A stretch of DNA of 64,000 nucleotides from Nitrosopumilus sp. LS_AOA (GTDB taxonomy: Archaea; Thermoproteota; Nitrososphaeria; Nitrososphaerales; Nitrosopumilaceae). The stretch lies in NCBI GenBank assembly GCA_001543015.1, contig LFLC01000008.1:1-64000 (forward strand). Direction: 5' to 3'. Both the position numbers and the translations under genes were made by a program. Below, one piece after another: positions 22,396-39,953 of this stretch; the first letter of the stretch is position 1; each line of letters opens with the position of its first letter. A model generated the notes under the pieces. It did not search any database, had not been told where the DNA came from, and was given only the letters and a program-made list of their open reading frames with translations.

Positions 22396-23430
22396 TCACA
22401 TTTTTGGGTCAAGGCCTTTTGCCAATCTTAATGCATCTACTAGTCCATCAGCATATCCTATACTCAAAATTGCAACTTCATCTAGCCCATCCTCCAGAAA
22501 TTTCTCTGCGTCTTGGATGTAAAGTTCTGCATTTTCTAAAATAACTTGAAATTCTTTTTGATCCTTGTAGAGTGGTATTATTTCAGCTAGTGCGTCCTTT
22601 ACCATTGGAACATATTTTTCCATCATTTGATTTGAAATCTTTTTTGTTTTCTCTGAATTATCAAAAGGCTCATCTATGCATTGACTAAATATTTTTAATG
22701 CATCTGATTCTGTAAAATGCATTCTACCTGGTATGATTATTGTATGCGGTGGCTTTCCAAAATTCTTCTTTTTGAGGCTAGATATTTTACCTGAAACAAT
22801 TTCTTGATCTTTGAATCCTATTCTTGATGCAATTATTACAAAAGTTGATGTACTAATTACATTTCTTTTTTGTCCTTTTTCTGTTTCTACTAATCCATTT
22901 AATGCATCATTTGGTTCCAAGAAAAAATCTTTGTCTTGATTGTACTCCAAAAGAAGTACAGTGTGGTTTCCTTCAATAATATTTTTGTAAATTACATAGT
23001 ATGGTGTGGTAAGTTCCATTTCACTCATTATTGTTGCAATCCTACCAACTTTGTAAAAATGCAAACCACATTCGCCTATCATTGAAGTAAGTGATGATGC
23101 TGCATGGATTGAATATGTTTTAATTTTCTGCTCAATTGCCCTTGTTCTTAATTCAATATGGGTAGTTGCAATGTATGGATCACCATAAGATAATAGTACA
23201 ACCTTCTTTTTCTTTGCATTTTTTAAAATCTCTTTACCATCTTCTACTAACCATCTTTTTGCAGGTTTGAATTCTCCTTTGGTTGCATTTTTGATTTTAG
23301 TTAAATCTGATTTTCCAATAGGGCTGGTAAATTGTTCTAAATACACAATGTCTGCTTTTGATAAAATATCTATTGCTTCATTAGGAATTGATTTGAATCC
23401 TGAAATTCCTAAACCAATAAACCACAGCAT
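22396..23430 (-). CDS. dphB: Diphthine synthase
   Basis: MLWFIGLGISGFKSIPNEAIDILSKADIVYLEQFTSP; SAM methyltransferase fold motifs. Confidence 0.9.
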   Translation of the reverse strand: MLWFIGLGISGFKSIPNEAIDILSKADIVYLEQFTSPIGKSDLTKIKNATKGEFKPAKRWLVEDGKEILKNAKKKKVVLLSYGDPYIATTHIELRTRAIEQKIKTYSIHAASSLTSMIGECGLHFYKVGRIATIMSEMELTTPYYVIYKNIIEGNHTVLLLEYNQDKDFFLEPNDALNGLVETEKGQKRNVISTSTFVIIASRIGFKDQEIVSGKISSLKKKNFGKPPHTIIIPGRMHFTESDALKIFSQCIDEPFDNSEKTKKISNQMMEKYVPMVKDALAEIIPLYKDQKEFQVILENAELYIQDAEKFLEDGLDEVAILSIGYADGLVDALRLAKGLDPKM

Positions 23431-24554
23431 TATTGCATTTTTTTGTCATGTAGTCTTTTTAAATGCTGTAAAGTTTTCTTCAAAATTTCAATACCTTTGA
23501 GATATTCTTCAATTGAAACTTTTTCGTCAATTGTATGTGCTTCATGTGGATCTCCTGGACCATACGTTACAACAGGAATGTTCCATTGATTACCTAGCAC
23601 ATTCATGTCTCCTGTACCTGTTTTTCTAATTAGAGTTGGTCTAGAATGCTCTACATCCATTACTCCAAGAGTAAATGCTCTAACTAATGGAGAATTATGC
23701 TCTGCTTCAAATGGCTCAGTTTCATCAAGTATTGAGTAAAATGCCTCTACTCCTCGTTTTTCTGAAATTTCTTTTACAACTGTTGCAATTTTTTGTTCAA
23801 CGGATTTACAGTTCATGTCTACTGGAATTCTAATGTCATAAGTTGTTTCACACTCTCTTGGAGTGACATTATGACTTGTTCCACCTTTAATTTCAGTCAT
23901 TGTTACAGTTAGTAACATTCCTTTTGTTCTACCTTCTTGTCCTGCTTCTAATTTTTCTTTAAGTTCAATTGCAAAAATTGCTGATTCTTGAATTGCATTT
24001 TTTGAAAGCCATGGTGCACTTGCATGAGAACTATCCTCAACACTAATTTTGAGATTAATTGCCAATCTTCCTTTGTATGCAATTGTAACTTGTTTAATTC
24101 CACTTGGCTCTCCAAAAATTGCATAATCAATATCCCATTTTTGTTTAACAATGTTTTTGATTCCAATAGCGTTTCCTTCCTCATCTACTGCTCCCACAAA
24201 AGTTATTGTTCCGCTATTATTTTCAATTGATGCTGCTGCAAATAACATTGCCATTAGTGGTGCCTTTGCATCAGATGCCCCTCGTCCATAAAGTGAGTCT
24301 CCTTCTTTTCTAACTTTGACTTTACCTGGAACTACATCCATGTGTCCACATAACATAATTTTAGGAGAACCTGAACCTTTCTTTGCAATAAGATTTCCTA
24401 CTTCATCAATTTGAATATCATCAAATCCTAAATCATCACATTTGTCAGCTAAAAATTCTGCCATTGGTTTTTCACTCAGTGATGGTGTGTACAATCTAAG
24501 TGCTTTTTCTAGCATCTTTGTTGCAAATCTTGAAGTTACTAAATGAGTGTCCAA
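23430..24554 (-). CDS. lysK: [LysW]-lysine/[LysW]-ornithine hydrolase
   Basis: M20 peptidase motifs LCGHMDVVPG, YGRGASDAKAPL, VDEEGNAIG; next to lysX/lysW. Confidence 0.88.
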   Translation of the reverse strand: MDTHLVTSRFATKMLEKALRLYTPSLSEKPMAEFLADKCDDLGFDDIQIDEVGNLIAKKGSGSPKIMLCGHMDVVPGKVKVRKEGDSLYGRGASDAKAPLMAMLFAAASIENNSGTITFVGAVDEEGNAIGIKNIVKQKWDIDYAIFGEPSGIKQVTIAYKGRLAINLKISVEDSSHASAPWLSKNAIQESAIFAIELKEKLEAGQEGRTKGMLLTVTMTEIKGGTSHNVTPRECETTYDIRIPVDMNCKSVEQKIATVVKEISEKRGVEAFYSILDETEPFEAEHNSPLVRAFTLGVMDVEHSRPTLIRKTGTGDMNVLGNQWNIPVVTYGPGDPHEAHTIDEKVSIEEYLKGIEILKKTLQHLKRLHDKKMQ

Positions 24555-24557
24555 TTC

Positions 24558-25400
24558 TTACTTGTCTACCTTTATTGCATAATCAAGCATTAGGGCTGGG
24601 ATATCTACATCACATACTCTAACAGTATTCTTGTATTCTGTTGTATTGTTAACTTCATGAACTACTAGCCCTTTCTCATCGCTTTCCATCAAATCTACAC
24701 CTACAATATCTCCTTGAACTGCATTTTTAGCCTTAATGCACATTTCTTCCATCTCTTGAGTAACTGGACATGGTTCTGCTACTCCACCAAGTGCCATATT
24801 TGTTTTCCAATGTTTAGAAATTCTATAAATTGCTGCAACGATTTTATCTCCTACCATTATTGCCCTAATGTCTCTTGGTGGTCTTTTTACAAATTCTTCT
24901 AAATAATGTACTTGATAAATTGGATACATTTTTTCTCTACTTTCAATAACTCCTTCAGCTGCATCTCTGTCATTTAATTTTGAAATTAATCTTCCCCAAC
25001 TTCCAACTGTTGGTTTGATTACTCTGGGAAATCCTTGAGTTTCCAATGCTTCCAAAGCTGCATCTTTTGAAAAAGCGACAGTTGCATCAGGTGTTGGTAC
25101 CCCAGCTTTCTTTAGTAACATATGTGTAAATAATTTATTTCCTGCAAATACTCCTGTGTTAAGACAGTTGATAACTTTGACACCTAATCCTTCTAATGCT
25201 GCAGTTGAATGTAAATTTCTGTAATAACTTACACATCTTTGAATCACCACTCCATACTCATCAGGTTTTTTTTCTAAATTTATCGCTAATTTTTTACAAT
25301 CCACCATCTGTATGTTGATGTTGTTTTTTTTTCCTGCTTCTAGTAGAGCTTTTTCTTCCCAACGGATGTTATCGTAAAGAATTGTAACGTCAGGACTCAC
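24558..25400 (-). CDS. lysX: ATP-grasp ligase LysX (alpha-aminoadipate-LysW ligase), probable GTG start at 25400 (track start 25409)
   Basis: TILYDNIRWEEKALLEAGKK; GFPRVIKPTVGSWGRLISK; VHEVNNTTEYKNTVRV; GTGA overlap with lysW stop. Confidence 0.85.
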   Translation of the reverse strand: MSPDVTILYDNIRWEEKALLEAGKKNNINIQMVDCKKLAINLEKKPDEYGVVIQRCVSYYRNLHSTAALEGLGVKVINCLNTGVFAGNKLFTHMLLKKAGVPTPDATVAFSKDAALEALETQGFPRVIKPTVGSWGRLISKLNDRDAAEGVIESREKMYPIYQVHYLEEFVKRPPRDIRAIMVGDKIVAAIYRISKHWKTNMALGGVAEPCPVTQEMEEMCIKAKNAVQGDIVGVDLMESDEKGLVVHEVNNTTEYKNTVRVCDVDIPALMLDYAIKVDK

Positions 25401-25564
25401 TGCCCCCAATCCTCGCCAACCGTTTGGGCGGGCTTTAGATCGAAACCATCTGAACCTTTTGCTAATTCAAAACTTGCACCACATTCTGGACATGTCACAA
25501 TTTCTCCTTCAAGTGCATCACTTGGAATAGAAATTACTGCATCACATTCTTCGCATTTAGCCAT
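25397..25564 (-). CDS. lysW: LysW carrier protein paralogue 1, ending ...VGEDWGQ; not in the supplied ORF track
   Basis: Manual translation: MAKCEECDAVISIPSDALEGEIVTCPECGASFELAKGSDGFDLKPAQTVGEDWGQ*. Confidence 0.88.
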   Translation of the reverse strand: MAKCEECDAVISIPSDALEGEIVTCPECGASFELAKGSDGFDLKPAQTVGEDWGQ

Positions 25565-25586: not shown

Positions 25587-26804
25587 TTATTTATCATTAA
25601 TTATCTTTTTTTCGAGTCTATCTTCAAGTGGAATATCAATGAGATCACCCATTCTTAGATTCTTTAATCCAGCAGCAAGAGCTTTTGCACCATCATCATC
25701 TTTTTCAAGACCTAATAATGTCATCAGGTAAGCAGCTCCTGTTTTTCCAGCTAATTCACCAAAAACTATTCTTCTTCTATTTCCAACTGATCTTGGAGGA
25801 ATGGGCTCATATGCTGCAGGATTTCTTAGAATTGCTGCAAGGTGTGTGCCTGCTTTGTGTTTGTATGCCGAAGTTCCTACAATTGGTTTTGAGTCATATG
25901 GTTTGATTGATGTGTATTCTTCAATTAATCTAGATAAATCTAGTAACATGTCTAATCTAAAATCATTTGGTGATTTGTACAGATGTGTTAATGCAACTGC
26001 AACTTCTGCAAGTGGTGGAATCCCTGTCCTTTCTCCAATTCCATCAATAGTTGTATGAATCTGATCAACTCCTGCATCACATGCTGAAAATGCATTTGCA
26101 ACTGCAAATCCAATATCATTATGAACATGTGCATCTAGTGGAACATCTACAACATCACTTACACTCTTTACAAAATTATACATTCCAATGGGGCGTAAAA
26201 TACCTACAGTATCTGGAAGACTGATTCTATCTACTCCTGCCTCCTCAATTGCTTTACAAACTTTGAGCAAAAATTCTGGCTCTGCTCTACTTCCATCCTC
26301 TACTGTAAATCTAATTTTAAGTCCATGAGATTTTGCATACTCTACAGTCTCTACTGCTCTATCTAATGCATCTTCTCTTGAAATACGTAGTTTATCTTTT
26401 AGATGAATATCTGATATTCCTAAATATGCTGCACACCATTTTGCATCACAGTCTAATGAAATATCTATATCTGATTTGAGTGCACGTCCATGAGATACAA
26501 TATCTGCCTTTAATCCTTGTTTGATAATTATCTTAGTTGCTTCTTTATGATCATTTGATATTACAGGTGAAATTTCAATTTGATCTACTCCAAAGTAATC
26601 TAACATCCATGCAATCTGAATTCTTTGTTTGTTTGTAAATGAAACACCCGGGTGTTGTTCTCCTTCTCTTAGAGTACTGTCAAGAACTCTAATTTTCTTT
26701 GGATTTTTATCGAATGCATTGTATTTGTTTGCATAGTGATTCGGATCTTTCATTGCTAAAATCGTTAACTTAAATTGATGATATAAACATATTCGTACTA
26801 ACAT
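25587..26804 (-). CDS. Homocitrate synthase (isopropylmalate/homocitrate synthase family), likely start 26753
   Basis: VLDSTLREGEQHPGVSFTNKQRIQIA; HVHNDIGFAVANAFSA; located upstream of lysW-lysX. Confidence 0.82.
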   Translation of the reverse strand: MLVRICLYHQFKLTILAMKDPNHYANKYNAFDKNPKKIRVLDSTLREGEQHPGVSFTNKQRIQIAWMLDYFGVDQIEISPVISNDHKEATKIIIKQGLKADIVSHGRALKSDIDISLDCDAKWCAAYLGISDIHLKDKLRISREDALDRAVETVEYAKSHGLKIRFTVEDGSRAEPEFLLKVCKAIEEAGVDRISLPDTVGILRPIGMYNFVKSVSDVVDVPLDAHVHNDIGFAVANAFSACDAGVDQIHTTIDGIGERTGIPPLAEVAVALTHLYKSPNDFRLDMLLDLSRLIEEYTSIKPYDSKPIVGTSAYKHKAGTHLAAILRNPAAYEPIPPRSVGNRRRIVFGELAGKTGAAYLMTLLGLEKDDDGAKALAAGLKNLRMGDLIDIPLEDRLEKKIINDK

Positions 26805-26870: not shown

Positions 26871-27290
26871 TTAGATAACTTTCTTCAAAATTATTACTGT
26901 GTTTGTATCTATGACTCCTGCAATTTTTCTTAATGCATCAATACTATTGTTAATGTCTGCGATATTTGATGCACTGATAATTGTTGTAATGTCGTATTGA
27001 CCAGTAATTTCATAAACTGTTTTTACTCCTTCTAATTTTGCAAGCTTTGATGAAACTTTCGATGTGTCAGTTGCAGAATCTACTGAAACAAGAACAATTG
27101 CACTAGTTGTATTTTCTTCTCCAATCTCTACAGTAAATTTCTTAATGGTTCCACTACTTACTAAATTTTTTACTCGTCTTCTTACTGCTGATTCAGAAAG
27201 TTTAAGTTTTTTCCCAATATCTACAAATGATTCTCTAGAATCCTCTTTTAGATATTCTATAATTTTTTGATCTGTTTTATCCTTGTACAT
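26871..27290 (-). CDS. Lrp/AsnC-family regulator (possible LysM-like regulator)
   Basis: IIEYLKEDSRESFVDIGKKLKLSESAVRRRVKNLVSSGTIKKFTV; C-terminal RAM domain. Confidence 0.85.
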   Translation of the reverse strand: MYKDKTDQKIIEYLKEDSRESFVDIGKKLKLSESAVRRRVKNLVSSGTIKKFTVEIGEENTTSAIVLVSVDSATDTSKVSSKLAKLEGVKTVYEITGQYDITTIISASNIADINNSIDALRKIAGVIDTNTVIILKKVI

Positions 27291-28464
27291 TTCGCTTTTG
27301 TTCCTCTTCAGTTAGTATGGAATCAAGAGCATGTAAAACTTTTGTTACATCATCTTCAGTTATAACTAATGGCGGAAGAATTCTCAGGATATTTCTTCCA
27401 GAATATAACATCAAAACACCTTTTTTAATTAATCCCATGAGAATATCTCTAATTTCGAACTTCATCTCTATTCCTATCATGAGTCCTTTTCCACGAATTT
27501 CCCTGATCATGGTATGTTTTTCTTTTAGTTTTTCTAATCCTTCTCTAAATAATTTACCCATTTTTTCTGAATTCTCAATTAACCCATCTTCTGTTAGTGC
27601 TTTGAGAGCTGCAGTTCCTGCTGCACATGCCAATGGATTCCCACCAAATGTTGATGAATGCTCTCCCTTACTCATTGAAGATAGAATATCTGGTCGTACC
27701 AGTGTTGCACCCATTGGAACTCCACCTGCAATTCCTTTTGCAAGACACAAAATATCTGGTGCAGTATTCCAATGGTCACATGCCCATAATCGTCCTGTTC
27801 TACCTAAACCAGCTTGTATTTCGTCAAAAATTAACAGAATTCCTTTTTCATTACAAAGCTTTCTTACTTGTTGTAAAAAATTTTCTGGTGCAACAATAAT
27901 TCCACTTTCACCTTGAATTGGTTCTAAAATAATAAAAGCTGTATCATCATCAATCACTGAAAGAACTGATTCCATATCACCATATGATGCAAAAGAAACT
28001 TTCTCTACAAGTGGTGCAAATGCTTTTCTATATTTTGGACTAAATGTTAATGACAATGCACCAAATGATTTTCCATGGTATGATCCTTTCATTGCAACCA
28101 TTCCTTTTTTGCCTGTAAACTTTCTTGCAAATTTCATTGCAGCCTCTATTGCTTCAGCTCCACTATTGTTTAGATGAACTTGAGTGAGTCCTTTGGGCGC
28201 TAAACTGATAAGTAATTTCAAAAATTCTTCTCTTGTTTTATTATACAGAGAACTATGAACTGTAATAATTTTATCAATTTGTTCTTTAATTGCATCATTG
28301 ACTCTTTTGTTTTGATGTCCTACTAGTGCAACTCCGTATCCGCCCATACAATCAATGTACTCTTTACCATCAATATCCCAAACATGAGCTCCTACTCCTT
28401 TTTCAATTGTAACTGGAAATCTTTGATATAGATTTCCCATGAATTGATCTTCACTCATGTTCAA
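27277..28464 (-). CDS. lysJ: Acetylornithine / [LysW]-aminoadipate semialdehyde aminotransferase
   Basis: Class III aminotransferase motifs NSGAEAIEAAMKFAR, LLIFDEIQAGLGRTG. Confidence 0.88.
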   Translation of the reverse strand: MNMSEDQFMGNLYQRFPVTIEKGVGAHVWDIDGKEYIDCMGGYGVALVGHQNKRVNDAIKEQIDKIITVHSSLYNKTREEFLKLLISLAPKGLTQVHLNNSGAEAIEAAMKFARKFTGKKGMVAMKGSYHGKSFGALSLTFSPKYRKAFAPLVEKVSFASYGDMESVLSVIDDDTAFIILEPIQGESGIIVAPENFLQQVRKLCNEKGILLIFDEIQAGLGRTGRLWACDHWNTAPDILCLAKGIAGGVPMGATLVRPDILSSMSKGEHSSTFGGNPLACAAGTAALKALTEDGLIENSEKMGKLFREGLEKLKEKHTMIREIRGKGLMIGIEMKFEIRDILMGLIKKGVLMLYSGRNILRILPPLVITEDDVTKVLHALDSILTEEEQKRNVQG

Positions 28465-29254
28465 TCACCGTACAATTATCATGTGCAATTGCACTAGATA
28501 TTGGATTCTCTTTTTGGCCATTTGCAATTATTGCTTTTTTGACTCCCATATCTAATGCTTCAGTTGATGCTAAGATTTTCTTCTCCATACCTGGACCAAT
28601 TTTTGGTCTGATTTCTTTTGCTTCAGCTAGTGTGAGTTTTGAAACAACTTTGTCATCCATTAAGAGTCCATCAACATTTGTAATGAATAATACTTTGTCA
28701 CAGCCTACTTTACCTGCTACATAAGCTGCTGCTCTATCTCCATCCACATTTAGGAATTCAGACTCTTCACTAATTGCAATGGGTGAAATTACTGGTGTGA
28801 GTCCTTGATCTAAAAGTAATTTGATGAATTCTGAATTGATTGCTGTGATCTTTCCAGTATATCCTCCATCAATTACTTGTTTTCGCCCTTTTTCATTAAT
28901 AATTATGAGTTTCTTTTTTCTGTCAGCTTGTATTATTTTGGCATCTATTCCTGAAAGACCAATGGCATTGATGCCATTTTTTTGAAGCATTTGGACTATT
29001 GTTTTGTTTATTCTACCTGACATTACCATTGTAAAAATCTCTGCAGTTTCTTTGTCAGTGAATCTACTTTTGATTCCACTAGGTGATGTAACAAATTTTG
29101 GTTCTTTCCCTAATTGTTTACAAACTTTGGTGACCTCTTTACCTCCACCATGAACTAAAATCACACCTTCTGATTCTACTATTTTTTTAATATCTGAAAT
29201 TGTTGATGGATGTAAATCATCTACAACACTTCCGCCAATTTTGATTGTGATCAT
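28451..29254 (-). CDS. lysZ: Acetylglutamate / [LysW]-aminoadipate kinase
   Basis: TIKIGGSVVDD; VLVHGGGKEVT; NVDGDRAAAYVAGKVG. Confidence 0.88.
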   Translation of the reverse strand: MITIKIGGSVVDDLHPSTISDIKKIVESEGVILVHGGGKEVTKVCKQLGKEPKFVTSPSGIKSRFTDKETAEIFTMVMSGRINKTIVQMLQKNGINAIGLSGIDAKIIQADRKKKLIIINEKGRKQVIDGGYTGKITAINSEFIKLLLDQGLTPVISPIAISEESEFLNVDGDRAAAYVAGKVGCDKVLFITNVDGLLMDDKVVSKLTLAEAKEIRPKIGPGMEKKILASTEALDMGVKKAIIANGQKENPISSAIAHDNCTVIEHE

Positions 29255-29256
29255 TT

Positions 29257-30303
29257 CTAAACAGGAGTTAATGGGGTGTATCTTAGTCCGCTCATTTCAT
29301 CAAAACCACTCATTACATTCATGTTTTGAATGGCTGATCCTGCAGCACCTTTCATTAAATTATCTGATGCTGATAGTGCAATCAATCTATTGTTATCTTC
29401 ATCTATATCAAATCCAATATCACAAAAGTTTGAACCAACTACAAATTTTGGATCTGGGAATTTGTATAATCCTTTTTTATCTCTAATTAATCTGATAAAT
29501 TTTTCATCACCATAAGCTTCACGATATAATTTCCACAATTCTTTTTCATCAATATCTTTTTTCATGAATGTGTGATTTGTACATAAAATTCCACGAACTA
29601 CATCTACTGCATGTGGACTCATTGAAACACGAATTTTCTTTCCTGCTATTTCGCTGAGCTCTTGTTCAATTTCACCTGTGTGTCTGTGTTTTGCTGGTTT
29701 GTATGGTCTAATCACTCCTGCCCTCATTGCATGTGCCGTTCCTGAACCAGAACCTGCACCTGATGAACCAATTTTTGAGTCAACGATAATGTGATCTGTT
29801 TCAATAATGTCATTACGAATTAATGGTGCTAGTGCTAATATCGATGTCACTGCCATACAACCTGGACAAGAAACTAGCTGTGATTTTTTTATTTCTTCTC
29901 TATGTAATTCTGGAACACCAAAAACTGATTTTTCTAAATAATCTGGATGTGGATGTTCCCATCCATACCATTTGTCATATGCTTCTTGATCATGTAATCT
30001 GTAATCCGCACTCAAATCAATTACTTTGATACCTCTATCGTATAGTGCTTTAACAATTTCAGTTGCAGTTCCATGTGGTACTGCCGTAAAAACTAGATCA
30101 CACTTGTTAACTAATTTTTCATAATCCATTTCAGAGAAAGTTAGATCGGTAAAACCCTTCAAACTTGGTTGTACTCTATGGAGATATTCTCCAACGTGTT
30201 GCCTTGATGTTACCATTGCAATTTCTACTTCTGGATGATTCACAAGAAGACGTAATGTCTCTCCTCCAACATATCCTGATGCACCAACAACCCCTACTTT
30301 CAT
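29257..30303 (-). CDS. lysY: N-acetyl-gamma-glutamyl-phosphate / [LysW]-aminoadipate 6-phosphate reductase
   Basis: VGVVGASGYVGGETLRLL; VSCPGCMAVTSILALAPL. Confidence 0.88.
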   Translation of the reverse strand: MKVGVVGASGYVGGETLRLLVNHPEVEIAMVTSRQHVGEYLHRVQPSLKGFTDLTFSEMDYEKLVNKCDLVFTAVPHGTATEIVKALYDRGIKVIDLSADYRLHDQEAYDKWYGWEHPHPDYLEKSVFGVPELHREEIKKSQLVSCPGCMAVTSILALAPLIRNDIIETDHIIVDSKIGSSGAGSGSGTAHAMRAGVIRPYKPAKHRHTGEIEQELSEIAGKKIRVSMSPHAVDVVRGILCTNHTFMKKDIDEKELWKLYREAYGDEKFIRLIRDKKGLYKFPDPKFVVGSNFCDIGFDIDEDNNRLIALSASDNLMKGAAGSAIQNMNVMSGFDEMSGLRYTPLTPV

Positions 30304-30331: not shown

Positions 30332-31189
30332 TTATTTCCTAACGTAGTTTAGCGCAAATTCTATCATTTCTTTTGGAATATTTCGCTGTGCAACTCTTGC
30401 CAATCCTTTGAATTCTACGGTATTGTTAACTTCATGTACCACTAGGCCTCGTTTTTCATCTTCCATCATATCAATTCCTAAAATTCCACCACCCATGGCT
30501 TTAGATGATTTAACTGCCAAATCCTCCATCTCTTTTGTGATCTCACAAATTTCAGGATCTGCTCCTAGTGCGATATTTGTTTTAAAACCACCTGATGATT
30601 TTCTATACATGGCTGCAATAGGCTCGTCCCCAACAGTAATCACTCTAATGTCTCTTGGTGGTCTGTTGATCATTTCTTGTAAATAGTAAATTCTATCATG
30701 TGGGCTATCTGTAATATCCCTAATTTCAAAAACTGCCTCCATCGTGTCTTTATCTTTAATTGGCATTACTCCTCTTCCCCAACTACCAATTATTGGTTTG
30801 ATAACTAGAGGAAATCCAACTTTTTCTAAATTTTCTGCAGCACTTTCACTTGAAAATGAAAAGTATGTTTTTGGTGTAGGAATATTATTTTTTTCTAAAA
30901 GTAAAGTCATGAACATTTTATTTCCACAAATATTTGCAACTTCAAATTTGTTTAAAACAGGAATATCCAAAAATTCTAAACATGCAGTAAAGTGTAATCC
31001 TCTAAAATAACTAACACATCTTTCTAGTACAACATTTCCAAAATCAAAATCTTCTTTTTTACTATCTGTGTTAATTTGGGTAATTTTTGCATCTAACATC
31101 AATGCATCGTGTCCTAGATTTTCTGCTTCTTTCTTAAGCATTTTTTCTTCTGACCTTAAACGGTCAAACACAATACAAACTTTTGACAT
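30332..31189 (-). CDS. argX: ATP-grasp ligase LysX paralogue 2 (probable glutamate-LysW ligase, ArgX)
   Basis: SKVCIVFDRLRSEEKMLKKEAENLG; FPLVIKPIIGSWGRGVMPI; between lysW2 and argC/argB homologues. Confidence 0.82.
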   Translation of the reverse strand: MSKVCIVFDRLRSEEKMLKKEAENLGHDALMLDAKITQINTDSKKEDFDFGNVVLERCVSYFRGLHFTACLEFLDIPVLNKFEVANICGNKMFMTLLLEKNNIPTPKTYFSFSSESAAENLEKVGFPLVIKPIIGSWGRGVMPIKDKDTMEAVFEIRDITDSPHDRIYYLQEMINRPPRDIRVITVGDEPIAAMYRKSSGGFKTNIALGADPEICEITKEMEDLAVKSSKAMGGGILGIDMMEDEKRGLVVHEVNNTVEFKGLARVAQRNIPKEMIEFALNYVRK

Positions 31190-31356
31190 TACTCTCCCCA
31201 GTCTTCGCCTACAGTTTCTGCTTGTTTAAGCTCAACATTTGATCCATCTTTTTTTGATATTTCAAAGTCAGCACCACAATCAGGGCAGGAGACTAATTCT
31301 CCTACTGAGGCATCGTCTGGGATGTTTAATTTTGCATCACATTCTGGGCAGTTCAT
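31189..31356 (-). CDS. lysW: LysW carrier protein paralogue 2, ending ...VGEDWGE; not in the supplied ORF track
   Basis: Manual translation: MNCPECDAKLNIPDDASVGELVSCPDCGADFEISKKDGSNVELKQAETVGEDWGE*; ATGA overlap with argG, TAATG overlap with argX. Confidence 0.92.
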   Translation of the reverse strand: MNCPECDAKLNIPDDASVGELVSCPDCGADFEISKKDGSNVELKQAETVGEDWGE

Positions 31357-32618
31357 GTTTTTGATTTCCTTTTCTTTTGTAATTTATTAGCTGCTGTTGA
31401 CTGCATTCCCCACAATTCTACAAATCCTTTAGCTAATCTTTGATCAAATGTAGAATCTGAACCATATGTGGCAATTTCATGACTGTAAAGAGAATATTTT
31501 GACTTTCGTCCTACAACCCTTAGACTACCCTTGTACATTTTGAGTTTCACAGTTCCTGAAACAGGTGTTTGTGATGCTTCAATGAATCCCTCCAAATCTG
31601 TTCTTAGTGGATCTTGCCAAAGTCCTGAATACACCAAATATGCCCACTCATCATCAATTAATGATTTGAATTTGTTTTCATGCTTTGTATGGACCATCTT
31701 TTCTAAATCTGAATGTGCTTCAATAAGGCAAGTTGCAGCTGGAGTTTCATACACTTCTCGAGATTTAATTCCAACTACTCTGTCTTCAATATGATCAACT
31801 ATCCCAACACCTGCATCCCCTGCTTTTTTGTTAATGTACTCAATTAATTTTTGAGATTCCAAAGTCTTTCCATCAACTTTAGTTGGAATTCCTTTTTCAA
31901 ATTCAATTTCCAAATATGTGGGTTTGTCTGGCAAGTTTTTTGTTTTTACCCAAATGAATACATCTTCTGGTGGTTCATTGTATGGATCCTCTAGTACACC
32001 TCCCTCAATTGCACGTCCCCACAAATTTTGATCAATACTGAATTTTTTTGCAACTGAATCAATTTCTATTCCGTGTTTTTTTGCAAACTTTAACTCTGTA
32101 ACCCTGTCTAAATTTTTATCTCGAATAGGAGCTATGATTGGAAGATCAGAGCCTGAACGTAATGTAATATCAAATCGAACTTGATCATTTCCTTTCCCTG
32201 AACAACCATGTGCTAATGCTGAAACTTTTTCTTTTTTTGCAATTTCTAAAACTTTTTCTGCAATTAGTGGTCGTGCAAGTGCAGTAGCTAGACAATATTT
32301 TTTCTGATAAAGTGCATTTGCTTTAATTGATGGAAAAATGTAATCTTTGACAAATTCTTTTCTTGCATCAATATTGTAATGTTTTTTTACACCAAGCTTC
32401 TTTGCTTTGGCTGCAATTTTTTTAGCATCATCTCCTTGTCCAACATCTACAGTTACTGTAATGACATCCATGTCATGTTCATCTTGTAGATATTTTACAA
32501 CAACAGATGTATCAAGTCCACCTGAAAATGCAAGAATTCCTTTTTGAGTCATGAAACATCTTTTCCGTCGTATTTTGGAATTTATCTTTTGTGATAGGCT
32601 GAAATTCATTTTTTTCAA
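31353..32618 (-). CDS. argG: Argininosuccinate synthase (likely start 32552)
   Basis: GILAFSGGLDTSVVVKYL; ALAHGCSGKGNDQVRF. Confidence 0.93.
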   Translation of the reverse strand: MKKMNFSLSQKINSKIRRKRCFMTQKGILAFSGGLDTSVVVKYLQDEHDMDVITVTVDVGQGDDAKKIAAKAKKLGVKKHYNIDARKEFVKDYIFPSIKANALYQKKYCLATALARPLIAEKVLEIAKKEKVSALAHGCSGKGNDQVRFDITLRSGSDLPIIAPIRDKNLDRVTELKFAKKHGIEIDSVAKKFSIDQNLWGRAIEGGVLEDPYNEPPEDVFIWVKTKNLPDKPTYLEIEFEKGIPTKVDGKTLESQKLIEYINKKAGDAGVGIVDHIEDRVVGIKSREVYETPAATCLIEAHSDLEKMVHTKHENKFKSLIDDEWAYLVYSGLWQDPLRTDLEGFIEASQTPVSGTVKLKMYKGSLRVVGRKSKYSLYSHEIATYGSDSTFDQRLAKGFVELWGMQSTAANKLQKKRKSKT

Positions 32619-36459: not shown

Positions 36460-37422
36460 TTGACTGAAAAAGAATCATTCCTTGATGCCATGAATAATAG
36501 AATTTTACTTTTTGATGGTGCCATGGGAACTGAAATTCAAAAAAATGATCCTAAACCTGAAGACTTTCCAAATGATCAAGATGGATTCAATGATGGATTA
36601 GTAATTACTCATCCTGAATGGATTAAAGAAATTCATAGAAATTATTTAGATGCAGGTGCTGATTGTATTGAAACAAATTCTTTTGGTTCAAATAAAATTA
36701 AACTTGATGAATATGGATTTGGAGATCAAACTATTGATTTTAATAAAAAAATTGCAACATTAGCATTTGATGTTTGTCAAGAATATTCTGATAAAGCACG
36801 TTATGTAATTGGGTCCATGGGGCCTACTGGATATCTTCCAAGTTCTAATGATCCTGATTTGGGACAAATACCTCTTGATGAAATACTTGAAGCATTTGAA
36901 TTACAAGCAGAGGGATTAATCCTTGGTGGTGTTGATGCATTACTAATTGAGACAAGTCAAGATATTTTGGAGGTGAAATTAGTAATTGAGGCATGTCACA
37001 ACGCAATTAAAAAAACAGGTAAAAAAATTCCAATTATTTCTAATACTACATTGGATCAATATGGTAAAATGTTACTTGGAACAACTATTCAATCTGCATA
37101 CACCACAGTTTCTGATATGGGCATTGATGTTTTTGGATTAAATTGCTCAACTGGACCAATTGAAATGAATCCAAGTGTACAATGGCTTGATGAACAAAAT
37201 GAACACAATATTCTAGTTGTCCCAAATGCTGGCATGCCTGAAAATGTGGGAGGACAGGCAGTTTACAAAATGACACCTGAAAAAATGGCTGATGCACTAG
37301 GTGATTTTCTTAATCAATACAAAAAAGTTCGAATTATTGGGGGTTGCTGTGGAACAAACCCCGATCACATCAAAGCACTAAGAAAAGTAATTGACGAAAA
37401 AGCCAATTCTCTGAATAGTTAG
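36460..37422 (+). CDS. Homocysteine S-methyltransferase module of a split methionine synthase (MetH N-terminal), TTG start
   Basis: ILLFDGAMGTEIQ; GLNCSTGP; GGCCGTNPDHIKAL zinc-binding motif. Confidence 0.88.
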   Translation: MTEKESFLDAMNNRILLFDGAMGTEIQKNDPKPEDFPNDQDGFNDGLVITHPEWIKEIHRNYLDAGADCIETNSFGSNKIKLDEYGFGDQTIDFNKKIATLAFDVCQEYSDKARYVIGSMGPTGYLPSSNDPDLGQIPLDEILEAFELQAEGLILGGVDALLIETSQDILEVKLVIEACHNAIKKTGKKIPIISNTTLDQYGKMLLGTTIQSAYTTVSDMGIDVFGLNCSTGPIEMNPSVQWLDEQNEHNILVVPNAGMPENVGGQAVYKMTPEKMADALGDFLNQYKKVRIIGGCCGTNPDHIKALRKVIDEKANSLNS

Positions 37423-37454
37423 GTATTTAGAAAAACTGAGATGATTTTACAACA

Positions 37455-39953
37455 TTGACTACCCCTCGAGTAAGTTCAGCAATGAAAGCAGTTGATCTAA
37501 AACAGATTCCTAAACCCCTAATCATTGGAGAGAGGATAAACACTCAAGGTTCCAGAAAAGCCAAGAAACTAGTTCTTGCTGATGATTATGATGGCTTGAT
37601 GGATTTGGCAAGAACTCAAGTTGAGGATGGTGCACACTGTCTTGATATTTGTGTTGCAACCACTGAACGCTCTGATGAAAAAGAATTCATGTTGAAACTT
37701 GTAAAACAACTAAGCTTGGAAATTGATGCTCCTCTAGTAATTGATTCAACTGATCCTGAAGTTATTGAATCCTCAGTAAAACAAATTCCTGGACGTCCAA
37801 TAATTAATTCAATTAATCTTGAAGGTGATGGTAGTAGATTTGAAAAGTTAGCACCATTGATGGCAAAGTATGGGCTACCTGCAATCTCTCTATGTATTGG
37901 ACCTGCTGGTATGGCTAAAACTCCACAAGAAAAATTAGAAACTGCTGAACTTTTATTTGAAACAGGAAAAAAATATGGATTAAAAATTGAACAATTTATT
38001 TTTGATGTACTTACATTTACTTTGGCAACAGGTGAGGATGAATTCATAAATGCCGGAAAAAATACTCTAGAAGGAATTCGACTAGTAAAAGATAGATTCC
38101 CAAATGCGTTTACCACTCTGGGTCTTAGTAACATTAGTTTTGGTTTATCCCCATATGCTAGAAAAATTCTCAATTCTACTTTCTTGTATCATGCAGTAAA
38201 AACTGGACTTGATTCAGCTATTGTTAATGCAAAGGAGATAGTTCCTTATGGTGAAATTGATGAAAAGGAACGAAAGCTTGCAGATGATTTAATTTTTAAT
38301 ACACATCCTGATGCCTTGTCTGACTTAATCGCACATTTTGAAAATCTTGGTCCTCAAAGTAGTAGTTCTAGCAAAAAAGTTGATGTTGATCCTTCTTGGC
38401 CTCCTGGTAAACGTGCAAATTTTAGAATTCTAAATAGACTCAAAGATGGACTTCAAAATGATGTAGTATCAGCCATTGCTGATAAATTAGGAATTGAAAA
38501 TCTCATTAAAAATAATGATGGAGTATTATCCATTGATGCTTCACAAGAAATTACTCATGATGGTGCTTTACGAACACTAAATGAGGATTTACTTTCTGCA
38601 ATGAAGGAAGTCGGTGATAAGTTTGGTTCAGGGGAACTAATTTTACCATTTGTTCTCAAATCTGCTGAATGTATGAAGGCTGCAGTAAATGAACTTGAAA
38701 AATATTTGTTACAAAAAGAAGGAACAAGTAAAGGAAAATTAGTTTTAGGAACAGTTTATGGTGATGTCCATGACATTGGAAAGAATCTAGTTAAAACAAT
38801 TTTTCAAAATAATGGCTATACTGTATATGATTTGGGTAAACAAGTTCCTTTACAAAAATTTTTAGAAAAAATTGATGAAGTACATCCTGATGCAATTGGA
38901 TTATCTGCATTACTAGTTTCTACTTCAAAACAAATGCAATTTTTTGTAGAACATGTCAGGAAAAATAACATGAATGTCCCAATTTTATGTGGTGGTGCTG
39001 CAATTAACACCAATTACATTAACAGAATTGCAAAAGCTGGTGGTATCTATGAACCTGGAGTCTTTTATTGTAATACAATGTTTGAAGGACTCAAAACAAT
39101 GGATACACTAGTCTCTGATGAAAAACCAAAACTGTTATCTCAATGGAAAGAAAAATTAGAAAATTGGAAAGAAAAATCAACTGCAAAAATTGATCCTGCA
39201 AATATTCCAAAAAGTGAAATCAAACCAGTTTCAGCTCCTTCTCCTAAAATAATTAATGAACCAATCCGTCTAAACTTGGACCAAATCAAAATGGATGAAG
39301 TCTGGCAAATGATTGACAAAAAATCATTATTCAAATTATCTTGGGGTTTGAGGGGAAAAGCAGGTGCTGAATCTGAAGAGGAACATGAAGAACTACTCAC
39401 TCAATGGAAGATTAGAATTATTCGAGATAAACTCATTGAGCCTGAAATTGTATATGGGTATTATCGATGTCACAACAAAAATGGAAAATTACTAGTTGAA
39501 AATACTAATGGTGATGATGTGGTATTTGATTTTCCACGCTCCACCAAACCTGAACATCTGTGTTTGACTGATTATTTTGGAGATGATGATATTGTTGCAT
39601 TCCAATCAGTAACTGTTGGAAATAGAGTAGCAGACATCATTGAACAATGGAATCAAGAGGACAAGTATACTGATGCCTACTATTTGCATGGATTGGCAGT
39701 TGAAATAGCAGAAGCTTTGGCTGAATGGATTAATCAAAAAATAAAGTCAGAATTGAATCTGGATAAAGGTGGTCTTAGATATAGCTGGGGATTTCCTAGC
39801 TGCCCTGATGTCGCTCAACACCATCTAGTGTGGAAACTATTACAACCTGAAAAATCTGGAATGACCCTAACTGAATCTGGACAAATAATTCCTGAACAAT
39901 CTACTGCTGCAATAGTTATTCATCATCCTCAAGCAAAATATTTTGTGATTTAG
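37455..39953 (+). CDS. MetH C-terminal modules: pterin-binding, B12-binding and activation domains
   Basis: IGERINTQGSRKAKKL; GTVYGDVHDIGKNLV cobalamin motif; RYSWGFPSCPDVAQHHLVW activation domain. Confidence 0.92.
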   Translation: MTTPRVSSAMKAVDLKQIPKPLIIGERINTQGSRKAKKLVLADDYDGLMDLARTQVEDGAHCLDICVATTERSDEKEFMLKLVKQLSLEIDAPLVIDSTDPEVIESSVKQIPGRPIINSINLEGDGSRFEKLAPLMAKYGLPAISLCIGPAGMAKTPQEKLETAELLFETGKKYGLKIEQFIFDVLTFTLATGEDEFINAGKNTLEGIRLVKDRFPNAFTTLGLSNISFGLSPYARKILNSTFLYHAVKTGLDSAIVNAKEIVPYGEIDEKERKLADDLIFNTHPDALSDLIAHFENLGPQSSSSSKKVDVDPSWPPGKRANFRILNRLKDGLQNDVVSAIADKLGIENLIKNNDGVLSIDASQEITHDGALRTLNEDLLSAMKEVGDKFGSGELILPFVLKSAECMKAAVNELEKYLLQKEGTSKGKLVLGTVYGDVHDIGKNLVKTIFQNNGYTVYDLGKQVPLQKFLEKIDEVHPDAIGLSALLVSTSKQMQFFVEHVRKNNMNVPILCGGAAINTNYINRIAKAGGIYEPGVFYCNTMFEGLKTMDTLVSDEKPKLLSQWKEKLENWKEKSTAKIDPANIPKSEIKPVSAPSPKIINEPIRLNLDQIKMDEVWQMIDKKSLFKLSWGLRGKAGAESEEEHEELLTQWKIRIIRDKLIEPEIVYGYYRCHNKNGKLLVENTNGDDVVFDFPRSTKPEHLCLTDYFGDDDIVAFQSVTVGNRVADIIEQWNQEDKYTDAYYLHGLAVEIAEALAEWINQKIKSELNLDKGGLRYSWGFPSCPDVAQHHLVWKLLQPEKSGMTLTESGQIIPEQSTAAIVIHHPQAKYFVI

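Follow-up and report, generated by a model that had tools for sequence, protein, structure and literature searches.

A glutamine-terminated LysW carrier in ammonia-oxidising archaea as a possible pro-form matured by deamidation

Introduction

The C-terminal glutamate is regarded as the one indispensable residue of LysW, the small carrier of LysW-dependent lysine synthesis. In the window analysed here (the whole 64,000-nucleotide stretch from Nitrosopumilus sp. LS_AOA), one LysW gene encodes glutamine in its place. How can a carrier operate when its attachment residue is not encoded? The question reaches beyond this locus, as the glutamate is missing from the gene in nearly all sampled ammonia-oxidising archaea and in many bacterial phyla, and these organisms still require lysine and arginine. 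Either this basic biosynthetic pathway contains a maturation step that has been overlooked, or the substrate is attached by a different chemistry. Among openly licensed PMC papers we found nothing relevant on EDWGQ or on LysW together with a glutamine amidotransferase, and no description of a Gln-to-Glu maturation for the LysW pathway; judged from that literature, the finding is likely to be novel.

The LysW1 gene and its operon

The minus-strand reading frame at 25564-25397 translates as MAKCEECDAVISIPSDALEGEIVTCPECGASFELAKGSDGFDLKPAQTVGEDWGQ followed by a stop. Its last codons are GAG GAT TGG GGG CAG TGA, with the stop at 25399-25397. The translation thus bears out the first-pass annotation, which had this protein (LysW1) ending in EDWGQ and a second carrier (LysW2, 31356-31189) ending in EDWGE; the latter does close with GEDWGE and a stop. 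LysW1 is a 55-residue zinc protein of the LysW type. The NCBIfam model of archaeal LysW/ArgW carriers (NF041070) gives it 86.3 bits and LysW2 92.9 bits, both above the cut-off of 75, and LysW1 also matches Pfam PF21344 (44.4 bits). It resembles the canonical LysW/ArgW proteins (Thermus, Sulfolobus, Thermococcus and Natrinema; PDB 3VPB, 3WWL and 5K2M) in length, in the zinc-ribbon cysteine pattern, in the acidic EDWG tail, and in its operon with LysX, LysY, LysZ, LysJ and LysK. As expected of such a carrier, it adjoins a LysX-family ligase with the GSWGR motif and intact ATP-grasp residues. In the canonical proteins, however, the substrate is carried by a final Glu, whereas LysW1 has Gln. Because it ends in EDWGQ, we file LysW1 as a Gln-terminated variant and not as a canonical LysW.

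A complete LysW pathway lies on the minus strand, running from ArgG, LysW2, an ArgX-like ligase, LysY/ArgC, LysZ, LysJ and LysM to a homocitrate-synthase-like enzyme, LysW1, LysX and LysK. The features, by ascending coordinate, are as follows.

23430-24554, minus strand: LysK-type M20 hydrolase (frees Lys/Orn from LysW), candidate LysW-Gln deamidase; TIGR01902, 273 bits; adjoins LysX in Nitrososphaeria operons
24558-25400, minus strand: LysX, ATP-grasp ligase adjoining LysW1; TIGR02144, 330.5 bits; GTG start overlaps the LysW1 stop; GSWGR and catalytic columns intact
25397-25564, minus strand: LysW1, Gln-terminated LysW-type carrier (putative pro-form), 55 residues, ending GEDWGQ
25400-25402, minus strand: CAG codon of the C-terminal Gln that replaces the attachment Glu; CAG in 80 of 87 genomes of the genus, GAG in five others
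25587-26804, minus strand: homocitrate/isopropylmalate synthase-like enzyme; TIGR02146, 368 bits, below the cut-off of that model; probably, with its operon position also considered, the homocitrate synthase of the aminoadipate route
26871-27290, minus strand: LysM regulator (Lrp type); NF040947, above cut-off
27277-28464, minus strand: LysJ/ArgD aminotransferase; TIGR00707, above cut-off
28451-29254, minus strand: LysZ/ArgB, [LysW]-aminoadipate/[LysW]-glutamate kinase; NF010662, above cut-off
29257-30303, minus strand: LysY/ArgC reductase; TIGR01850, above cut-off
30332-31189, minus strand: second LysX-family ligase, ArgX-like, adjoining LysW2; TIGR02144, 291.9 bits; separate clade in the LysX tree
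31189-31356, minus strand: LysW2, Glu-terminated carrier, ending GEDWGE by translation
31353-32618, minus strand: argininosuccinate synthase (ArgG), by sequence and operon position

The stop of LysW1 overlaps the GTG start of LysX (25400-25398) in a GTGA at 25397-25400. The overlap was considered as a cause of the Gln codon and rejected: only the third base of CAG is common to both genes, the first base, which decides between Gln and Glu, is free, and GAG TGA would retain the GTG. Elsewhere in the window, at 36460-39953, the cobalamin-dependent methionine synthase appears as two adjacent reading frames, the homocysteine-binding part followed by the remainder.

Distribution of the Gln ending in the class

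An exact-pattern search found EDWGQ followed by a stop in 267 of 401 genomes of the class, a count to be read with the facts that such searches overlook other tails and that most genomes are assemblies of varying completeness. Nearly every genome sampled from the window's family has the pattern, as do 80 of the 87 from its genus; it was not found in families f4-f17 or in the other orders sampled in the class search. As the reversed-pattern control gave zero in every row listed, these frequencies stand above chance. Dozens of assemblies made independently, closed genomes among them, show the same ending, and sequencing error was accordingly rejected. A recent point mutation, which the first-pass annotation had offered as one explanation, is ruled out, since Gln is a fixed state throughout the ammonia-oxidising archaea and turns up again in many bacterial phyla. 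Although CAG and GAG are a single base apart, the chance that either accounts for an ending found in so many genomes of the class, in many phyla and in closed genomes is practically negligible.

We also took LysW loci from every lineage and read their C-termini without presuming the ending. The last residue of the 180 carriers found by profile was Glu in 106, Gln in 74 and anything else in none. In the window's family the carrier beside LysX (W1) ends in Gln and the one beside ArgX (W2) in Glu. Both end in Gln in the Nitrososphaera-type genera g28, g25, g46 and g48 and in two of three genomes of the Cenarchaeum genus (g7), the two states are swapped between W1 and W2 in genus g30, and genera g24 and g41 have a single carrier, which ends in Gln (one g41 assembly with 6% contamination, G345, has two). 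A Fitch count on the LysX tree gives at least five changes between Gln and Glu; were the residue free, Gln alone would appear in five changes with a probability of about 6e-5. Codons for Lys, Asp, Val, Ala and Gly lie as near to GAR as those for Gln, so the restriction to Gln and Glu speaks against a free residue.

Two arrangements of genes were observed along the way. Unlike the others, genus g41 (L072, L076) has one Gln carrier, one LysX and no ArgX between ArgG and ArgC, and its single LysX may serve both pathways. In a single genome of Candidatus Nitrosocaldus tengchongensis, the LysW(Gln)-LysX pair occurs twice, on separate contigs (L121, L122).

Genomes with Gln carriers only

EDWGE followed by a stop was absent from 31 of 34 genomes searched whose carriers are all or mostly Gln. 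One of the 31 is Nitrosocosmicus franklandus C13, a closed genome on a single contig of 2,836,447 bp with a complete operon and one LysW, which ends in VVGEDWGQ. At the site of LysW2 in other lineages, the ArgG and ArgX genes of this genome overlap, which leaves no room there for a second carrier. This isolate grows in inorganic medium with bicarbonate as the sole carbon source (PMC6776761). Its Gln carrier must therefore serve lysine synthesis, and the presence of ArgX makes a role in arginine synthesis most likely as well. From these genomes, Gln-LysW is not a spare copy. For Nitrosopumilus maritimus, passages of a published metabolic model name a single LysW gene, Nmar_1287 (PMC6038301); the genome that we took to be this species (G044) has two carriers, one of them ending in Gln.

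The first-pass annotation had also considered a non-carrier scaffold for LysX. As a scaffold or regulator, Gln-LysW would leave all carrying to the Glu paralogue, which agrees with the retention of one Glu and one Gln copy in the window's genome and most of its family. With whole prototrophic genomes holding Gln carriers only (31 genomes, among them a cultured autotroph with a single LysW), and with the states swapped between the two copies in some genomes (G140), this role is very improbable, and for the all-Gln genomes it is rejected.

Reversals and the ligase

Seven genomes of the window's genus lack the Gln pattern. In five of them W1 ends in EDWGE (GAG TGA) at the same place, four of these forming one clade; no carrier was found in the other two. 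LysX of the genomes that reverted to Glu is about 93% identical to that of the Gln species, and no active-site column of LysX follows the switch within the genus. In the wider set, Gln and Glu carriers alike stand beside a LysX whose catalytic and GSWGR columns are intact, and wherever the flanks of a Gln carrier locus are complete enough, a LysX with an intact ATP-grasp site lies close by. An unchanged ligase on both sides of the switch implies that LysX seems, from its sequence, to meet the same substrate with either ending. Coevolution of LysX with the terminal residue was considered and rejected, as no active-site column tracks it and the one substitution noted, Q168E, follows lineage and not the Gln/Glu state.

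An EgtC-like glutaminase in bacterial operons

When all GTDB species were scanned for EDWGQ with TAA or TAG as the next codon, 80 loci emerged, 40 of them LysW-like, with a few more truncated by contig ends. Among the lineages that have such LysW-like loci are Melioribacteraceae and other Ignavibacteria, Calditrichota, KSB1, Acidobacteria, Gemmatimonadetes, Phycisphaerae, Krumholzibacteriota, Heimdallarchaeota, Caldarchaeum and Alphaproteobacteria. Outside the ammonia oxidisers most are flanked by LysX, LysY and LysZ, and EDWGE with a stop occurred in none of the 32 Gln genomes that were tested by way of named loci, almost all of which belong to other lineages than the window's.

Between LysY and LysZ, Gln operons outside the ammonia oxidisers repeatedly carry a gene for a protein of about 213 residues that begins with MCR. 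Representative positions are the following.

L287:2915-3544, L250:6105-6749, L262:4190-4831, L289:6457-7107 and others: EgtC-like class-II glutaminase in the LysY-LysZ gap (alignment A1)

Alignment A1 shows an invariant Cys2 with HARSA and FNG motifs, and Pfam places the protein among the class-II glutamine amidotransferases (GATase_4). The class-II glutaminase residues of the Ntn fold are all present, namely Cys2, Arg75 and Asn101-Gly102. The predicted structure (pLDDT 93.4) has EgtC as its top PDB match (TM 0.80). EgtC, the γ-glutamyl Ntn hydrolase of ergothioneine synthesis (PDB 4zfj-4zfl), where it hydrolyses a γ-glutamyl amide, is thus the nearest solved fold and among the nearest relatives by sequence, sharing the Cys2 nucleophile, the Arg and the Asn-Gly motif. 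The two are only 17% identical, however, and the EgtC-like enzyme sits between LysY and LysZ in operons that lack LysK; on the EgtC equivalog TIGR03442 it scores 26.6-46.7 bits against a cut-off of 218.65. By these sequence comparisons, it is a relative of EgtC and not EgtC. In a hand alignment, the class-II Asp position, which binds the free α-amine of glutamine, appears to be Gly (IGAEK), which would suit a Gln whose amine is tied up in a peptide bond, the situation of a C-terminal residue.

Because loci selected for Gln would bias any association with the hydrolase, we searched 247 genomes of Acidobacteriota, the phylum of Acanthopleuribacter, for either ending and fetched their operons (L244 and L234 served as the operons of G745 and G751). 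The ten operons with an M20 LysK all have Glu carriers, the seven with the EgtC-like enzyme have five Gln and two Glu, and none has both hydrolases (Fisher p = 0.003 for Gln against hydrolase type, with shared descent ignored). The Deinococcus and Streptomyces references pair LysK with a Glu carrier, and across the bacterial sample an M20 LysK occurs with a Gln carrier in 0 of 13 cases. In many bacterial phyla and in Heimdallarchaeota, the EgtC-like enzyme therefore most likely replaces LysK as the release hydrolase, as far as gene content and sequence can tell. Since two of its operons carry Glu, its main job is probably product release; the idea that it is a dedicated deamidase only is weakened by those two operons and by its standing in for LysK. 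Recognition of this putative LysK replacement would aid annotation where the last step of lysine synthesis looks absent. The gene was found neither in the window nor in about 150 loci around LysW genes of the window's relatives, and plasmid records gave no match to it. Two loci, L408 and L413, are exceptions to the association with Gln, as they combine a Glu-terminated LysW with the EgtC-like enzyme and have no LysK in the stretch.

A proposed maturation of Gln-LysW

On balance, Gln-LysW is probably a pro-form that is deamidated to LysW-Glu before loading by LysX. LysW1 would be the working amino-group carrier of the lysine pathway, serving arginine as well in ammonia-oxidising archaea with a single LysW. 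It would be translated with a Gln terminus, the side-chain amide would be hydrolysed to Glu post-translationally, and LysX would then phosphorylate and load the γ-carboxylate as usual. Release of lysine from LysW-γ-Glu-Lys and release of ammonia from LysW-Gln both cleave a γ-glutamyl amide, which would make the pathway's own release hydrolase the most economical deamidase. That slot is occupied by the EgtC-like glutaminase in many bacteria and Heimdallarchaeota, and by LysK in the window's lineage; a glutaminase that frees lysine from LysW-γ-Glu-Lys would be expected to deamidate LysW-Gln also. Deamidation explains jointly why only Glu and Gln occur, why they interchange freely, why LysX is unchanged and why a glutaminase lies in the operons.

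Deamidation had been one of four options in the first-pass annotation. It is now the best supported and has gained a genomic lead from the glutaminase and LysK operons; for the window's lineage, the enzyme is a candidate. LysK is a tentative choice there. None of its columns follows the Gln state, so coevolution of LysK with Gln was rejected, and its absence beside Gln carriers in the bacterial sample argues that M20 LysK enzymes are inherently ill suited to deamidating LysW-Gln. Both observations favour a separate deamidase encoded away from the operon, a variant of the same scheme that we hold to be just as likely as LysK, and hence equally tentative. Against it, Gln arose several times and reverts easily, a Pup ligase/Dop homologue (PF03136) is absent from the genome, and we know of no candidate gene.

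The alternatives without deamidation differ in the atom or the reaction that they invoke. As the first-pass annotation also suggested, LysX might attach the substrate to the free α-carboxylate of the last residue, with the side chain idle and LysK an ordinary carboxypeptidase. An attachment atom common to Glu and Gln fits their interchange without change in the LysX active site, and RimK superfamily relatives make α-linkages. However, canonical systems are established to load on Glu54, and in Natrinema the Glu54Ala exchange abolishes the synthesis of arginine (PMC10433800). The catalytic and GSWGR residues of LysX are as conserved in Gln as in Glu pairs, and the α-linkage leaves the restriction to Glu and Gln without explanation. 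We consider it unlikely. Still less likely is direct use of Gln-LysW by LysX or another ligase, in which the amide is exchanged for the substrate amine through an acyl-phosphate and free LysW-Glu never forms. The glutamyl-transferase activity of glutamine synthetase offers a likeness, no partner gene is common to all Gln systems, a LysX with an intact ATP-grasp site is at hand wherever the flanks of the locus are complete enough, and Dop works on an amide carbonyl with ATP or ADP/Pi (PMC8599861). On the other side, the comparable ligase PafA is unable to deamidate PupGln (PMC12288473). Gln in bacteria tracks the type of hydrolase and not of ligase, and to our knowledge LysX has no transferase activity of this kind.

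Comparison with known carrier systems

The proposed maturation of LysW recalls that of Pup. In many bacteria the encoded Pup ends in Gln, and PafA can ligate it only after deamidation by Dop; the removal of Pup is likewise the work of Dop, which apparently uses a single active site for both reactions (PMC8599861, PMC12288473). The terminus of Pup alternates between Gln and Glu from species to species, like that of LysW, and its ligation site is the γ-carboxylate of the last Glu. The alternation among relatives expected of such a pro-carrier is found in LysW, both in the 106 Glu, 74 Gln and no other endings and in the reversals within the genus. The sequences are unrelated, however, and LysW carries a metabolite whereas Pup is a degradation tag; deamidation is the proposed step in LysW. 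A Pup ligase/Dop homologue as the deamidase was rejected, because with PF03136 absent from the window's genome LysW1 does not belong to a Pup system and is at most an analogue. In the pearlin/PEARL system, too, an amino acid is built on the C-terminus of a small carrier (PMC9303977). The proteins there are unrelated and the bond is a tRNA-dependent α-peptide bond, so that this system bears only on the α-linkage alternative.

Taken broadly, there may be a widespread second form of LysW-dependent amino-acid synthesis, in which the carrier starts as an inactive pro-protein ending in Gln and the amide hydrolase of the pathway itself matures it. The hydrolase would be the EgtC-like enzyme, replacing LysK, in Heimdallarchaeota and many bacterial phyla, and either LysK or some other enzyme in ammonia-oxidising archaea. 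We regard this wider reading as a serious possibility, a little short of probable. If true, primary metabolism would have evolved the Pup/Dop logic a second time, independently.

Two alphaproteobacterial loci stand somewhat apart. In Sulfitobacter (L231:577-594) and a second Alphaproteobacteria MAG (L256:323-340), a LysW-like protein ends in EDWGQ within clusters whose LysX, LysY and LysZ are very divergent (LysX 25-31%), and these clusters are possibly a different carrier-based pathway.
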